From assembly GCA_011524785.1 (NCBI GenBank), contig WTJQ01000446.1:1-10486 (forward strand): DNA of 10,486 nt, in the 5' to 3' direction. Positions 2,991 through 10,486 of this stretch are shown here, piece by piece. How positions within the stretch are numbered: the stretch's first letter is position 1; the number at the start of each line of letters is the position of its first letter. This DNA is from Planctomycetota bacterium. Lineage in GTDB: Bacteria; Planctomycetota; UBA1135; GCA-002686595. Position numbers and translations under genes: made by a program. Under the pieces are notes generated by a model. It did not search any database, was not told the origin of the DNA, and was given only the letters and a program-made list of their open reading frames with translations.

Positions 2991-4250
2991 TCAGCGGTCG
3001 TCGTCCGCCGGCAGGAGGTCCTCGATCAGGAGCTCGAACTGGTCCACGAGGCGCTCGTGCGCGGGGCCCGTGGCCGGACCGTTGAAGCCGGTGTGGACGG
3101 CCCGGGGCGTCCCGTCCGCCGCGATGAAGACCGTCGTGGGGAACGCCAGGACGCGGTCGAGCAGGGGGAAGGCCTCGGAGGCCTCGGCCTTGCTCGCGTT
3201 GCCCGCGCGCAGCAGGGGGTACGGCACGTCGAGGGCGCGCTGGAAGCGCTGCAGTCGCGCGCGCTGGTTCTCGGGGGAGTCCTGCTGCTCGAAGCCGAGC
3301 CCGACCACCTGCAGGCCTCGCGGCCCGTACTGGCGCTGCAGTCGCGCGAGCAGGCGCGCCTCGTCGACGCAGTTGGGACACCAGCTCCCGAACAGGACGA
3401 GCACCAGGGCCTTGCCCTCGAAGGCCGGATCGTCGAGGGCCTGCGGCTCGCCGTCGATGGTCTCGAAGGTGAGGCCCGAGAGGTCGACGCCCTCCTTCAG
3501 ACGCGTGAGGCCGAAGGGGTCGGGCACGCGCGCGTCCTCGTCGCGGCGCGCTGCCCAGACCTCGGTCCAGTGGGCACCCGACTGGAAGACGCCACCCAGG
3601 TTCCCCTCGGCGTCGAGCTGGGCATCGAAGCGGAAGGCGTGCGCGCCGTCGAAGCACGAGAGGCGCAGGACGCCCTCCTCCCAGGTCCCCTCGAGGAAGC
3701 GGTAGTCGCCGAGGGTGGTCATGAAGGTGCCGGTCACGCTGCGGGGACCCTGCTCGAAGATCGCGACCGCGGGCTCCTCGCTCGACTCGAACTCCACCGA
3801 CCAGCGGCCCGCGAGTCGGGCTCCCCCGCGGGCGGTCTTGCCCTGGCCCGGGAAGCGGGGCTTGGCGCCGTGGGTCGCGTGGAACGGCATCGTGCGCGCC
3901 TCGCCCTCACCCCGCTCCAGGGTCCACTCCCCGTCGAGCCGCACGCCCCCCTGGGTGATGTCCGCCTCGATCCAACTGTCGTAGGGCGTGCAGTGCAGCC
4001 GCAGAGTGCGGTCCTCATGGGTCGCCTCGATCGGGATGCGCTCGCTCCCGTTGTTGATGTAGGCGACCCAGCCCCCCGGAACGCGACCGATGTCGATGGA
4101 GAAGGGGATCTCCCCCGAGGGCGAGTCGAGCCAGGCGTGCCAGCGGCCGGTCCGCGGCTCGAGCGGGCCCGCACCGGGCGTCGGATCCTGGGGGGTGGTG
4201 GTCATCAGGCCGATGAGGAGCAGGGCCAGCATGCTGCGATCGTACCGCAC
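2991..4250 (-). CDS. TlpA/ResA-like thiol-disulfide oxidoreductase with a long beta-rich N-terminal region
   Basis: The C-terminal 165 residues (about 255-419) are a TlpA/ResA/AhpC-TSA type thioredoxin domain. It shows GKALVLVLFGSWCPNC with active-site Cys291 and Cys294, a GLQVVGLGF strand, and the cis-proline strand FPTTVFIAADG (Pro371). Such domains reduce or exchange disulfides outside the cytoplasm. Residues about 35-235 are two beta-rich stretches that may be repeats: one has GRWHAWLDSPSGEIPFSIDI and the other AGRWSVEFESSEEPAVAIF, each followed by short beta strands and a LDGEWT or LEGTWE motif. They resemble lipocalin- or beta-barrel-like modules. The start is GTG at 4250, giving a basic n-region (R2, R5) before the hydrophobic stretch; an ATG at 4232 is an alternative. 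This is the first gene of the minus-strand operon and is divergent from the DUF2784 gene 46 bases away. Confidence 0.85.
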   Translation of the reverse strand: MRYDRSMLALLLIGLMTTTPQDPTPGAGPLEPRTGRWHAWLDSPSGEIPFSIDIGRVPGGWVAYINNGSERIPIEATHEDRTLRLHCTPYDSWIEADITQGGVRLDGEWTLERGEGEARTMPFHATHGAKPRFPGQGKTARGGARLAGRWSVEFESSEEPAVAIFEQGPRSVTGTFMTTLGDYRFLEGTWEEGVLRLSCFDGAHAFRFDAQLDAEGNLGGVFQSGAHWTEVWAARRDEDARVPDPFGLTRLKEGVDLSGLTFETIDGEPQALDDPAFEGKALVLVLFGSWCPNCVDEARLLARLQRQYGPRGLQVVGLGFEQQDSPENQRARLQRFQRALDVPYPLLRAGNASKAEASEAFPLLDRVLAFPTTVFIAADGTPRAVHTGFNGPATGPAHERLVDQFELLIEDLLPADDDR

Positions 4251-6524: not shown

Positions 6525-7004
6525 TCAGGTGTAGCCCAGACCCTTGAGCGCGTTGTTGAGAGCGCCGCCCTCGGCCTTGGCGGCCTCGGCCTTCAGCTTC
6601 TCCAGGTACTTCTGGAGCTTCTCGCTCTCGGGGAACTTCTTGAGGCCGGCGTCGACGACGTTGACGGCCTCCAGCAGGCCGTCGGCGCCGCCGTTGAAGA
6701 GGTCGCGGATCATGTCGCGGTAGGCCTTCTCCTCGAGGTCCGTGGCGCCGGCCAGCTGCATGAAGTCCTCGCGAGCGGCGCTCGAGTCGACGTAGGCGCG
6801 CGCGCGGCAGCGCGCGATGGCGACCTCGGTGTGCTCGGGCGTGCCCGCGCTCAGGCTCGCGAGGGCGGTGTCGAAGTGCCCGACGGCGGCCTGGTGGTCC
6901 CCGGCCTGCACGGCCATCTGGCCCGCCTCGGTGGGGTCGGCGGGCGTGTCGGAGCCGCAGGCGCCGAGGACGAGGAGGAGCGAGAGCGTGAGGGGGGCTT
7001 TCAT
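6525..7004 (-). CDS. Small lipoprotein with TPR-like helical body
   Basis: This 159-residue protein begins with a lipoprotein signal: MK, a Leu-rich core, and a lipobox VLGAC with Cys16 as the lipidated residue, followed by GSDTPAD. The mature protein is helical. Residues 25-52 (PTEAGQMAVQAGDHQAAVGHF) read as one tetratricopeptide-type repeat, followed by further helices rich in Ala, Glu and Lys (KKFPESEKLQKYLEKLKAEAAKAE), which could form a coiled coil. The final residues are NALKGLGYT, similar to the tail of the RHH protein encoded on the other side of the intergenic region. TPR lipoproteins usually serve as envelope scaffolds; the substrate here is unknown. It is transcribed away from the sulfate-activation operon and shares the 361-base intergenic region with it. 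Confidence 0.8.
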   Translation of the reverse strand: MKAPLTLSLLLVLGACGSDTPADPTEAGQMAVQAGDHQAAVGHFDTALASLSAGTPEHTEVAIARCRARAYVDSSAAREDFMQLAGATDLEEKAYRDMIRDLFNGGADGLLEAVNVVDAGLKKFPESEKLQKYLEKLKAEAAKAEGGALNNALKGLGYT

Positions 7005-7024
7005 GGCGTGAGCAGTCTAGGGGC

Positions 7025-7040
7025 AGGGGTGGACACCCCT
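7025..7040. repeat. Perfect palindrome upstream of the lipoprotein gene
   Basis: AGGGGTG and CACCCCT are exact inverted arms of seven bases around a GA centre, 21 bases upstream of the lipoprotein start. One arm sequence (AGGGGTG) recurs at 7299-7305 inside the six-repeat array, so the same regulator may bind both places. It is an operator candidate or a leader hairpin. Confidence 0.5.
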
Positions 7041-7079
7041 CCCGTCGGCGGAGGTTGGGGGAGAACCTGAGGGCTGGAG

Positions 7080-7139
7080 CGCTCCCGGGCCCCGTGGGGG
7101 CCAGCGGAACCCGCTCCGGGCCCCTGAACGGGCGGAACC
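7080..7139. repeat. Imperfect tandem duplication
   Basis: Two directly adjacent units share both ends. Unit 1 (7080-7111) begins CGCTCCCGGGCCCC and ends GCGGAACC. Unit 2 (7112-7139) begins CGCTCCGGGCCCC and ends GCGGAACC. The middles differ in length (32 versus 28 bases overall). Unit 1 also contains a hairpin-like GGCCCC/GGGGCC. Function unknown. Confidence 0.55.
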
Positions 7140-7191
7140 TCGAAGCGTTGGTCGGGGATCGCCTGCGACAGACCGTGCATTCGGCTCTTGG

Positions 7192-7203
7192 TGCGATGTC
7201 GCA
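7192..7203. repeat. Short palindrome TGCGATGTCGCA
   Basis: Five-base perfect arms (TGCGA/TCGCA) flank a TG centre. It lies 42 bases upstream of the six-repeat array and could be a second operator, but the length allows chance. Confidence 0.3.
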
Positions 7204-7245
7204 AGTCCCTGCCCCGCAGGCTCCTGGGACGATCCAGGGCGCCTG

Positions 7246-7316
7246 CACTCCAATCGCACTCTCACGACACTCCAATCGGAGTACCATTGGGGTGCCCGAG
7301 GGGTGTGATCGGAGTG
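7246..7316. repeat. Array of six 11-base repeats with dyad symmetry, candidate operator
   Basis: Three contiguous direct units start at 7246, 7257 and 7268 (CACTCCAATCG, CACTCTCACGA, CACTCCAATCG). After five spacer bases, three contiguous inverted units occupy 7284-7294, 7295-7305 and 7306-7316; read on the minus strand they are CACCCCAATGG, CACCCCTCGGG and CACTCCGATCA. All six begin CAC[T/C]C. About 24 of 35 positions pair across the dyad at base 7281. An 11-base period puts every unit on roughly the same helix face. Ribbon-helix-helix repressors typically bind short repeated boxes like this, and the next gene encodes one, so autoregulation is the leading inference. Confidence 0.75.
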
Positions 7317-7365
7317 TTCGGCTCCAGTCCCCGGGCGCTTCTGTCGACTCTAGGGGCACCTCCCC

Positions 7366-7605
7366 ATGCGCGAGTCCAAGGTCACGATCAAGATCCCCCG
7401 GCCCCTCTACCGCCGCATCCAGCAGGTGGTCGAGGACTCCGGCTTCGACTCGCCGACCGACTTCATCGTCTACGTCCTCCGGGACCTCATGGGGCAGGCC
7501 GAGGCCCACGCCGCCGAGGCGCCCGCGCCCGATGCCACGCCCGAGTTCACCCAGGACGAGCTCGAGGACGTGAAGCGCAAGCTCAAGAACCTCGGCTACC
7601 TCTGA
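7366..7605 (+). CDS. Ribbon-helix-helix (CopG/MetJ/Arc-type) protein, probable operon regulator
   Basis: This 79-residue protein has an N-terminal ribbon-helix-helix pattern: strand SKVTIKIPRPL (residues 4-14), helix YRRIQQVVEDSG (15-26), then SPTDFIVYVLRDLMG (29-43) as the second helix. In RHH dimers the paired strands insert into the DNA major groove, with alternating strand residues (here K5, T7, K9) contacting bases. An Ala/Pro-rich linker (44-60) leads to a charged C-terminal helix FTQDELEDVKRKLKNLGYL. That tail resembles the L-x-x-LGYL end of many sulfatase-family proteins. A weak AGGGG ribosome site (7352-7356) precedes the ATG by nine bases. It is the first gene of the sulfate-activation operon, 46 bases before sat, and is preceded by a six-repeat array that it probably binds. 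DNA binding is inferred from fold; the ligand, if any, is unknown. Confidence 0.8.
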   Translation: MRESKVTIKIPRPLYRRIQQVVEDSGFDSPTDFIVYVLRDLMGQAEAHAAEAPAPDATPEFTQDELEDVKRKLKNLGYL

Positions 7606-7651: not shown

Positions 7652-8899
7652 ATGTCCTCCACCGCCGTCGCCACGCCCGTCCACGGGGGCCTCGACTCGC
7701 CCGTCAACCGCATCGATTCCGCCGCCGTCCAGGAGGGACTGGCCACGATCTGCGTCAACGAGGTCGACCGCACGACCCTGTACCGCATCGCCGACGGCAC
7801 CCTGAGCCCGCTCACGGGTCCCATGGGCAAGGCGGACTACGACAGCGTCCTTGGCCAGGGCTGCATCGAGCGCGGCGGCAAGAACTGGGCCTGGACGATC
7901 CCGATCATCCTGCCCGTGTCCGACGCGGAGGCGGGAGCCTGCACCGCGGGCGCGAAGGTCTCCCTCGTCGACGAGGCCGGCAAGGCCTTCGGCACGCTGA
8001 CCGTCAGCGACTGCTTCGCCTGGGACAAGGCCGCCTTCATCAAGGCCGTCTACCGCACCGAGCGCACCGACCACCCCGGCGCCAAGCTGTGGCTCGGCGA
8101 CGAGCGCACCCAGCTGGTCGGCGGAGAGATCTGCCTCGCGCCTGCCGAGGACACGCGTCCGTTCGCGGGGCGCGTCATGGGCCCGACCCAGACCCGCGCC
8201 CTCATCCAGGAGAAGGGCTGGGAGCAGTCCATCGCGTTCCAGACCCGCAACCCGCTGCACCGTGCCCACGAGTACGCGCTCGTGTACGGCGCGGAGTGCA
8301 TCCTGCGCGAGACCGGCAAGAAGACCGGCGTCGTCCTGAACCCGCTCGTCGGCCAGCTCAAGGGCGACGATGTTCCGGCCACCACCCGCATGGAGACCTA
8401 CGAGGCCCTCGTGGCGAACCGCTTCCTGGGCGAGGGCGACAAGGACGAGGAGCTCTGGAGCTCCAAGGGCCAGGACCTCAACGACCAGCTCGAGCTCGTC
8501 GGCCTGGACATGCGCATGTACTACGGCGGCCCGGCCGAGGCCGTGATGCACGCCATCTACCGCCAGAACCTGGGCTTCACGCACTTCATCATCGGCCGCA
8601 AGCACGCCGACGCCCCGTACGAGGACGGCACCGCCATCTGGGGTGACTTCGACGCCCAGGAGGTCTTCAACGAGCTCGGCGGCGACCTCCAGATCAAGAC
8701 GGTCAACGTCGGCTTCGCCGCGTACTTCGAGGAGATCGGCCGCGTCGGCCTGATGGAGGAGAACAAGGAGAACACCTCGGTCTTCATCTCCGGCACCAAG
8801 GTGCGCGCCCAGCTCACCGCCGGTGAGTTCCCCGACCCGCGCATCATGCGCGAGTCCACGGCGAGCATCCTCGTCGACTACTACAAGACCAAGGCCTGA
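7652..8899 (+). CDS. sat: Sulfate adenylyltransferase (ATP sulfurylase)
   Basis: Catalyses ATP + sulfate to adenosine 5'-phosphosulfate (APS) + pyrophosphate in the cytoplasm. The 415-residue length is normal for the monofunctional single-chain Sat family (not the CysD/CysN type). The N-terminal PUA-like region runs to about residue 170. The catalytic part has the signature QTRNPLHRAH (197-206; family Q-x-R-N-P-x-H-x-x-H), GGPAEAVMHAIYRQNLGFTHF (292-312), GRKHAD (315-320), and ISGTKVRAQL (379-388). Two departures are visible. The usual GRDHAG motif reads GRKHAD, and there is an extra loop of about a dozen residues at about 260-280 (GEGDKDEELWSSKGQDLNDQ) before the MRxxGGP motif. No separate APS kinase domain follows; CysC is encoded two genes downstream. 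The ATG at 7652 has no Shine-Dalgarno sequence. Codon use is strongly biased, suggesting high expression. Confidence 0.97.
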   Translation: MSSTAVATPVHGGLDSPVNRIDSAAVQEGLATICVNEVDRTTLYRIADGTLSPLTGPMGKADYDSVLGQGCIERGGKNWAWTIPIILPVSDAEAGACTAGAKVSLVDEAGKAFGTLTVSDCFAWDKAAFIKAVYRTERTDHPGAKLWLGDERTQLVGGEICLAPAEDTRPFAGRVMGPTQTRALIQEKGWEQSIAFQTRNPLHRAHEYALVYGAECILRETGKKTGVVLNPLVGQLKGDDVPATTRMETYEALVANRFLGEGDKDEELWSSKGQDLNDQLELVGLDMRMYYGGPAEAVMHAIYRQNLGFTHFIIGRKHADAPYEDGTAIWGDFDAQEVFNELGGDLQIKTVNVGFAAYFEEIGRVGLMEENKENTSVFISGTKVRAQLTAGEFPDPRIMRESTASILVDYYKTKA

Positions 8900-8922: not shown

Positions 8923-9897
8923 ATGGGACTCTTCGACGCCTTCAAGAAGAAGAAGCCGGCGGGCGGACCCCGCCCGGCGCTGCCGCCGCGTCCCATGATG
9001 CGGCCGGGCATGGTCAACAAGCCTGACCCGCAGGCCGAGAACAACTTCATCATCATCACCCTCGACTCGTGCCGCTGGGACTCGTTCGTCGCGGCCGAGC
9101 CGAAGGTGATCACGAAGCTCGGGAAGGTCGAGAAGCGCTACACCTACGCCTCCTGGACCGCGCCCTCGCACTACAACCTGCTGACGGGCCTCCTCCCGCA
9201 CACGACGCCGCAGAACGTGTACGCGTCGGAGTACTACAAGGAGGACTTCTACAACTACAACGAGCGCCTGGGCTCGAAGGGGACCGACATCGACTTCGCG
9301 GCGATGGTCCCCGCGCTGTGGCTCCCGCAGTTCATGCAGGCGAAGCTGGGCTACGACACGCACGCACGCGTCTCCCTGCCGGTCCTGAACCCCAAGACGG
9401 GGATCAACCGTGGCTTCGACAGCTTCCAGCTGATGGACAGCCACAACGACATGCGGTCGATGCTGCCCACCATGAAGTTCGACGGCCCGCGCCCGCACTT
9501 CTACATGCTCAACGTGGGGGAGACGCACTACCCCTACGCGAAGCCTGACGAGGACTCGTCCATGTGGCCTCGCATCAGCGGTGTGAACGGCGTCTTCAAG
9601 AAGATGAACGATCAGATCGCCGACAAGGCGGAGTCCGCCGAGGACGACAAGTTCAAGGAGGACTTCCAGTTCTTCGACCAGGACAAGCTCGACGAGCTCA
9701 AGGAGCGCCAGATCGACACCGTCCGCTACCTGGACGGCGTGTTCGAGGAGCTCTACGACCTCGTCCCGAAGAACACCCACATCATCGTGACCGCCGACCA
9801 CGGCGAGCTCTTCGGCGAGGCCGGCTACTTCGGCCACGGGCCGATCATGCACGAGAAGTGCTTCGAGGTTCCCTACCTCGAGGGAAAGATCCGCTGA
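8923..9897 (+). CDS. Cytoplasmic alkaline-phosphatase-superfamily (sulfatase-fold) protein with Thr at the nucleophile position
   Basis: This 324-residue protein has the sulfatase/alkaline-phosphatase fold. The first strand and metal ligand are FIIITLDSCRWDSF (42-55, Asp48). The nucleophile segment is SWTAPSHYNLLTG (77-89), aligning with the sulfatase signature C-x-P-S-R-x-x-L-x-T-G but with Thr79 for the formylglycine Cys and His83 for Arg. Then come NVGETHYPY (197-205) and the metal-binding VTADHGELFGEAGYFGHG (289-306). It has no signal peptide; a basic Lys/Pro-rich N-terminus indicates the cytoplasm. It is shorter than most sulfatases (usually 450-550 residues) and stops right after the EVPYLEGKIR strand. 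It lies 23 bases after sat and 75 before cysC. Without Cys it cannot form formylglycine, so a Thr-nucleophile phosphodiesterase, phosphatase or transferase acting on APS, PAPS or PAP is the inference. A catalytically dead regulator is the alternative. Confidence 0.85.
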   Translation: MGLFDAFKKKKPAGGPRPALPPRPMMRPGMVNKPDPQAENNFIIITLDSCRWDSFVAAEPKVITKLGKVEKRYTYASWTAPSHYNLLTGLLPHTTPQNVYASEYYKEDFYNYNERLGSKGTDIDFAAMVPALWLPQFMQAKLGYDTHARVSLPVLNPKTGINRGFDSFQLMDSHNDMRSMLPTMKFDGPRPHFYMLNVGETHYPYAKPDEDSSMWPRISGVNGVFKKMNDQIADKAESAEDDKFKEDFQFFDQDKLDELKERQIDTVRYLDGVFEELYDLVPKNTHIIVTADHGELFGEAGYFGHGPIMHEKCFEVPYLEGKIR

Positions 9898-9972: not shown

Positions 9973-10486
9973 ATGAACGACAACGGTTTCATCCTCTGGT
10001 TCACCGGCCTCTCCGGCTCGGGCAAGTCCACCCTCGCCGAGTACCTCACCCCGATCCTCATCGAGAAGGGCGTGAAGGTCGAGGTCCTCGACGGCGACGT
10101 CGTGCGCACCAACCTCTCGAAGGGCCTCGGCTTCTCGAAGGAGGACCGCGACACCAACATCCGCCGCATCGGCTTCGTGGCGAACCTCCTGGCTCGCAAC
10201 GGCTGCTGCGCCATCACCGCGGCGATCAGCCCCTACACGTCGGTCCGCGACGAGTGCCGCGCCATGTGCGAGGCGACCTTCGTCGAGATCTTCGTCGACG
10301 CCCCCCTCGAGGTCGTCGAGGAGCGTGACACCAAGGGCCTGTACGCCAAGGCACGCTCGGGCGAGATCAAGAACTTCACCGGCGTGTCGGATCCCTACGA
10401 GGCTCCCGAGAACGCCGAGATCGTCGTGAAGACCGGCGAGGAGTCCATCGAGGAGTCCGCCAACCGGATCCTGGGCTGGCTCCAGG
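9973..10486 (+). CDS. cysC: Adenylyl-sulfate kinase (APS kinase), partial at window end
   Basis: Phosphorylates APS at the 3'-hydroxyl with ATP to give PAPS, the universal sulfonate donor. The visible 171 residues contain the P-loop GLSGSGKST (12-20), the LDGD motif (39-42) contacting nucleotide, [19 protein letters not shown] (52-70), the AAISPY loop with Ser86 at the position of the catalytic-site serine of CysC enzymes, and the lid segment [21 protein letters not shown] (107-127) with [11 protein letters not shown] (135-145). These are all features of a functional CysC. Family length is about 175-200 residues, so only the last few to about 30 residues lie beyond the window. The ATG at 9973 lacks a Shine-Dalgarno sequence but matches the usual family start. 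It is separate from Sat, giving a two-protein PAPS pathway, and lies 75 bases after the sulfatase-fold gene on the same strand. Confidence 0.96.

Follow-up and report, generated by a model that had tools for sequence, protein, structure and literature searches.

An 11-bp box lattice points to a self-controlling ribbon-helix-helix switch for sulfate use in many Planctomycetota

Main finding

The window, by which we mean the whole 10,486-nt stretch of DNA analysed (contig WTJQ01000446.1 of a Planctomycetota bacterium, assembly GCA_011524785.1), carries an array of short boxes immediately upstream of a small gene of ribbon-helix-helix (RHH) type, which is followed by genes for sulfate adenylyltransferase (sat), a sulfatase-like protein and APS kinase (cysC). 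This array is probably, at a rough probability of 0.8, the operator of the adjacent RHH protein, dimers of which would bind side by side and repress the promoter of their own RHH-sat-sulfatase-like-cysC operon. Taken across genomes, the analysis points to an apparently undescribed self-controlling RHH switch for sulfate use in many Planctomycetota: the lattice of boxes is conserved, it is in register with a -10-like hexamer, it co-occurs with the RHH gene and not with sat alone, and the gene order of the operon is conserved as well. In the open-licence literature we found no RHH/CopG regulator of sulfate adenylyltransferase, ATP sulfurylase or sulfate assimilation, and a paper behind subscription could exist.

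The array and the operon in the window

The array lies between a divergent TPR-like gene (6525-7004, minus strand; Pfam TPR match below cutoff) and the gene of the 79-aa RHH-type regulator (7366-7605, plus strand), and is composed of seven boxes in register, three direct ones of the CACTCC type on the plus strand and four inverted ones of the GGAGTG type, which read on the minus strand. The first direct box, D1 (CACTCCAATCG, 7246-7256, CACTCC at 7246), occupies a lattice slot that is also used in relatives; D2 (CACTCTCACGA, 7257-7267, CACTCT at 7257) follows 11 bp after it; and D3 (CACTCCAATCG, 7268-7278, CACTCC at 7268) forms the left half of a central palindrome, CACTCCRATYGGAGTA, which is the most conserved part. 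The right half of this palindrome is the inverted box I1 (GGAGTA, 7278-7283), conserved at positions +10 to +15 from the anchor, and beyond it come I2 (CCATTGGGGTG, 7284-7294, core GGGGTG at 7289-7294), I3 (CCCGAGGGGTG, 7295-7305, core GGGGTG at 7300-7305) and I4 (TGATCGGAGTG, 7306-7316, core GGAGTG at 7311-7316). Counted by their hexamers, the direct boxes start at 7246, 7257 and 7268 and the inverted ones at 7278, 7289, 7300 and 7311; the step between neighbours of the same orientation is 11 bp, and a single switch of orientation occurs at CACTCC-AATC-GGAGTA, where the starts are 10 bp apart.

The first-pass annotation had described six 11-mers in a 3 + 3 dyad with exactly preserved spacing on either side of a 5-base spacer. 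The six 11-mers, D1 to D3 and I2 to I4, do stand where it had placed them (starts 7246, 7257, 7268, 7284, 7295 and 7306) and their 11-bp register holds, but the count of six does not, since the supposed spacer is part of an overlooked in-register box, I1, and the layout is therefore 3 + 4; the real dyad falls at about 7275.5, between CACTCC (7268-7273) and GGAGTA (7278-7283). When one mismatch or fewer per 6-mer was allowed, seven boxes were found in register in the window, against a maximum of three in 5000 dinucleotide shuffles of the intergenic region (7005-7365) scored for this motif, and a maximum of four in 60 shuffles in which any 6-mer, a period of 7-14 and a junction of 6-15 were accepted. 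The 15-mer CACTCCAATCGGAGT occurs exactly once in its own genome, in this array; at two mismatches the sole copy is inside the same array, and at three mismatches copies in that genome are not commoner than those of the reversed control (13 matches in all vs 32).

Downstream of the RHH-type gene and on the same plus strand are sat (415 aa, 7652-8899; PF01747, E 9e-56, and PF14306, E 5e-29), a gene for a protein of the sulfatase/phosphodiesterase superfamily (324 aa, 8923-9897; PF00884, 37 bits for a cutoff of 25) and cysC (170 aa, 9976-10485; PF01583, E 9e-65), which runs to the end of the contig at 10486. Sat and CysC are the two enzymes that convert sulfate to APS and PAPS. Among 80 named loci searched with tblastn, 69 have a Sat match, 72 one to the sulfatase-like protein and 47 one to the TPR neighbour, and at least part of CysC was recovered in 60; CysC matches of at least 150 aa were limited to 12 because the 2500-base flanks end near cysC. 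Judged from these matches, RHH-sat-sulfatase-like-cysC is a conserved operon. A 720-744-aa protein is encoded after cysC in G009 and in the two loci of family f5 that were checked; those of the f5 loci have a match to type I phosphodiesterase.

Conservation of the 11-bp lattice

The RHH protein was found in 37 of 61 related genomes and, in a phylum-wide sample of 294 genomes, in 30. From 168 relatives the best 80 were kept, with records labelled Planctomycetota, planctomycete or just bacterium, with one Gemmatimonadetes, and these 80 loci, the window and eight G loci (G loci with a gene start already present being left out) made up a set of 89. Within 450 nt upstream of these 89 RHH loci, exact CACTCC/GGAGTG hexamers form 54 same-strand pairs at 11 bp and 13 at 22 bp, and convergent pairs at 10, 21, 32, 43 and 54 bp number 4, 13, 19, 9 and 5, respectively. 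By comparison, 360 kb of DNA flanking the same loci contain no same-strand pair at 11 or 22 bp and no convergent pair, and none of 200 shuffles had more than one hexamer pair at the spacings of the array.

For the filling of the lattice, 300 nt upstream of 89 + 19 loci were considered, 12 of which were removed because their last 120 nt duplicated those of another locus, which left 96. At least three of the six lattice slots are filled (one mismatch or fewer) at 75 of these 96 RHH loci, vs 0 of 12 loci without RHH and 2 of 1093 flanking windows of 306 nt; the Fisher p of 1e-7 for this comparison overstates its certainty, because the RHH-less loci are few (12) and the related loci are not independent. 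Grouping of similar upstream regions left 78 groups, 59 of which have a member with three or more filled slots. The expectation that boxes with an 11-base period would be conserved upstream of orthologous RHH-sat loci is thus strongly borne out, by hexamer pairing as well as by lattice filling across RHH loci, and, as was also anticipated, no equally good array turned up at unrelated sites in the 360 kb of DNA flanking the RHH loci, the whole genomes having been scanned with short exact or near-exact patterns only.

Two or fewer slots are filled at 21 of the 96 RHH loci, and just one at five of them (L149, L151, L075, L076 and L246), two filled slots being also found in 144 of the 1093 background windows. 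These weak loci include L134 and L136, where RHH stands without sat, and the distant L249 and L250. Several members of family f5 and L151, whose record is labelled Gemmatimonadetes, also belong to them, with a motif that is eroded or different.

A column profile was built from the 79 of 89 loci that scored at least 11, which a 75% identity filter brought down to 65. The anchored columns read CACTCC-RAT-N-GGAGTA-YNAT-N-GGAGTG-YNAT-N-GGAGTG, the central boxes being the most informative with up to 2 bits, and in an alignment of loci of the same genus the boxes stand out against poorly conserved upstream flanks. The motif is strong enough for sequence-based annotation at most loci. A second conserved stretch, TTCTG-CGAC-C, is seen between the array and the RHH start (about 7337-7350 in the window) in five aligned loci of the genus.

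Candidate promoter and proposed mechanism

A probable -10 element, TACCAT (7282-7287, plus strand), overlaps the end of I1 and marks a predicted promoter, with a putative transcription start region after it. A TANNNT hexamer beginning at the T of the first inverted box is present at 68 of the 79 anchored loci, in the form TANNAT at 55 of the 79, and at the sixth base of that box A (83% of the reduced set of 65) predominates over G (14%). At L092, L097 and L099 the GGAG part of the box is altered and TACNAT is still in place. At five f47 loci (L244-L248) and at the second copy of G030 (L073), where that base of the first inverted box is G or the box is eroded, a TAYNNT recognised by eye instead precedes the first CACTCC or CACTCT by 3 bp, and at several other loci lacking TANNNT no -10 could be placed. 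A search for a sigma-70-type promoter with a -35 gave no match in the window. As a general promoter signature of the window's own genome, GGCTA(C/T)NAT was rejected (16 sites, against 10 in the reversed control).

The repeat array lies over the promoter, itself predicted, of the RHH gene. We infer that RHH is the binder, and likewise infer occlusion, repression, cooperativity and derepression by a signal. RHH dimers would be arranged side by side on the 11-bp lattice, one per box and on one face of the DNA; as 11 bp is about one helix turn, the dimers would share that face and could touch. Once bound, they would cover the start region as well as the -10 before it, which overlaps the central palindrome, and a covered promoter would leave transcription of RHH-sat-sulfatase-like-cysC repressed, and hence the APS/PAPS pathway. 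The loop would be autoregulatory and would also act on the linked operon, and a signal of sulfur status would bring about derepression.

It is less likely, and in our opinion unlikely, that RHH binds the same boxes and activates, or switches between activation and repression. Such a role would agree with the lack of a sigma-70-type match or -35 in the window, with upstream direct boxes that could place RHH beside RNA polymerase and that lie in the -35 region at many loci, and with the f47 loci, whose -10-like element is upstream of the boxes. However, beside the central pair it is the inverted boxes over or downstream of the -10 that are better conserved, where a bound protein should block, and a good number of loci lack any direct box before the central one.

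Boxes follow the RHH gene

The 12 loci without RHH consist of one sat-sulfatase-like operon (G016), five loci with a sulfatase-like gene and cysC only, two further sulfatase-like loci and four sulfatase-like loci in genomes that have RHH elsewhere. G016, whose sat is 52% identical, has the sole RHH-less sat operon that we found in close kin; the array is absent from it. Where RHH and the sulfatase-like gene are unlinked (four genomes), it is RHH that has the array, and the sulfatase-like gene has none. Conversely, of 12 RHH loci with no downstream sat match, ten keep three to five filled slots and two (L134 and L136) keep two. Among the cases compared, the array comes with RHH and is lacking where RHH is lacking, and this ties it to the RHH protein. 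G030 contains two RHH-sat-sulfatase-like operons (L227 and L228), both with boxes, the sats of which are about 33% and 68% identical to that of the window. In G095 (contig C291) and G255 (contig C15), the contig with the main RHH match carries another, weak one about 6 kb away.

Distant RHH genes of G180 and G329 precede genes of the TauE/SafE type, that is, of sulfite-exporter type. G180 has a three-box array, and G329 has two filled slots upstream and a palindrome, CACTCC-GTTA-GGAGTG, between RHH and the TauE/SafE-type gene; such genes following distant RHH relatives, with CACTCC/GGAGTG boxes nearby, were noted in L269 (about 3181-3196, minus strand) and in L270 (2298-3236). In G116, two slots are filled and the neighbour is TlpA-like; in L268 (1840-3694), a distant RHH gene stands before that of a DUF2092/TlpA-like redoxin protein and has the palindrome CACTCT-cata-GGAGTG just upstream. 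The printed upstream DNA of the L268 genome is AT-rich. The sat operons and the TauE/SafE neighbours make oxidised sulfur a common theme, G116 excepted.

Since it is co-occurrence that designates RHH as the binder, another regulator, for example a sulfur-responsive factor, might bind the boxes with RHH as a passenger of the operon. We consider this improbable, as the boxes are absent at G016, which lacks RHH though sat and the sulfatase-like gene remain, are mostly kept where sat is missing, and accompany distant RHH genes with other neighbours (TauE, TlpA-like). A role of the repeats in RNA, through a leader structure or attenuation, is very improbable: some inverted boxes do fall within the predicted leader, but the direct boxes and the central palindrome are upstream of the predicted -10 or across it, the leader folds no better than its shuffles (z 0.08) and the window has no Rfam match. 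Chance or a simple-repeat artefact, for which one could invoke the GC-rich DNA, the imperfect repeats of the window and a CACTCC simple repeat in G020, is refuted by conservation across RHH loci, and the shuffles, the empty flanking DNA and the filling of the lattice at RHH loci all speak against it.

Across the 61 genomes, 13 of the 14 distinct exact CACTCCRATYGGAGT sites are at RHH loci, the remaining one being inside a long open frame of G042. With up to one mismatch on both strands, CACTCCRATYGGAGT has 106 matches in these genomes (16 for the reversed control), many of which are outside RHH loci and some in genomes that have no RHH. A wider regulon found no support at six off-locus places (five in G021 and one in G042), none of which has three in-register boxes by eye and all of which are inside open frames of 215 codons or more; the other matches may include further targets. 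Exact CACTCC-N5-CACTCC pairs, of which the array in the window has none, number 65 in the 61 genomes (reversed control, 17), with 29 at RHH loci and 36 elsewhere with varied linkers; three of the latter form a simple repeat of CACTCC with an 11-bp period, which lies on an unrelated contig of G020.

Comparison with known RHH systems

MetJ, the RHH repressor of methionine and sulfur metabolism, binds tandem 8-bp AGACGTCT boxes with SAM as corepressor. The likeness lies in an RHH repressor, tandem boxes and sulfur metabolism, repression being here a prediction, whereas no 8-bp AGACGTCT boxes are found, the unit being CACTCC at 11 bp, and the genes are others. In Arc of phage P22, RHH dimers occupy two half-sites on the same DNA face, at a distance of about 11 bp. 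The same dimer distance is proposed here from the spacing of the boxes, which in contrast are usually three or more and precede a metabolic operon.

Omega acts on direct and inverted repeats over promoters, at plasmid copy and partition genes, and not at a chromosomal sulfate-activation operon as here. Passages of one account of omega from pSM19035 describe RHH dimers, one per repeat, that are proposed to polymerise on arrays of short repeats, with the 7-bp heptad NATCACN as the unit (PMC4803016). The units here are instead CACTCC with a period of 11 bp, and the heptad described in those passages is not the unit found. CopG serves plasmid copy control. According to passages of a second source, CopG of a Streptococcus plasmid is a small repressor of RHH type that forms chains of dimers on its operator, with wrapping of the DNA (PMC8251345). 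Our protein resembles it in being small and of RHH type; the operator and the function controlled differ. RHH antitoxins (ParD, VapB, PrpA), which occur among the weak fold matches below, are similar in autoregulation, which is predicted here, but an adjacent toxin gene would be expected with them, and the loci have Sat (69 of 80) and the sulfatase-like protein (72 of 80). A toxin-antitoxin reading was rejected: no toxin partner was seen, the next gene in the loci checked being sat, sulfatase-like, cysC or TauE-type.

Box number and orientation differ between species on one fixed lattice, and this natural series of operators makes the polymerisation of RHH on DNA directly testable. For Planctomycetota, many of which are represented by metagenomes only, sulfate activation and the supply of PAPS would moreover gain a regulator and a binding motif.

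The RHH-type protein

For the 79-aa protein, Pfam RHH_8 scores 12.7 bits, far below its cutoff of 25.4, no NCBIfam profile matches, and homologues are named CopG family, ribbon-helix-helix or Arc/MetJ-type in their source records. In the predicted model (mean pLDDT 71.6), residues 1-11 are extended and helices span 12-25, 30-50 and 63-75; DSSP assigned no strand, which can be the case when a single strand finds its partner only on dimerisation. Foldseek returned NikR, Arc, CopG, ParD and PrpA together with some non-RHH entries, RHH proteins dominating the informative matches, all of which are weak (none with E of 0.001 or less), and the closest solved sequence is NikR (E 0.17).

The N-terminal KVTxKIPRPLY and the C-terminal KLKNLGYL are conserved. 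In 21 aligned sequences V6, T7, K9, P11 and the C-terminal L-GYL are kept, with V6, T7 and K9 invariant, and an alignment of eight sequences that includes the three most distant retains V, T, K, I and P of the strand and the L-GY end. Invariant V6, T7 and K9 are consistent with a dimer that would contact DNA through the strand in the major groove, and the C-terminal helix may have a putative role in dimer-dimer contacts or in the sensing of a sulfur compound. A broader proposal, which we regard as an even bet, is that of a new RHH family of oxidised-sulfur metabolism scattered over Planctomycetota, in which the helix ending in LKxLGYL would sense a sulfur signal, the protein would polymerise on the lattice, one box would have been made into a -10 by a change of G to A (GGAGTG to GGAGTA), and the number of boxes would set the strength of control over sulfate activation and, in distant relatives, over TauE-type sulfite export.

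The divergent TPR-like protein (6525-7004) ends in ALKGLGYT, which resembles the KLKNLGYL end of the RHH protein; this tail motif common to both proteins may be a coincidence. A profile comparison also matched the RHH tail to the end of an APS kinase (7yq0), at a non-significant E of 1.6.
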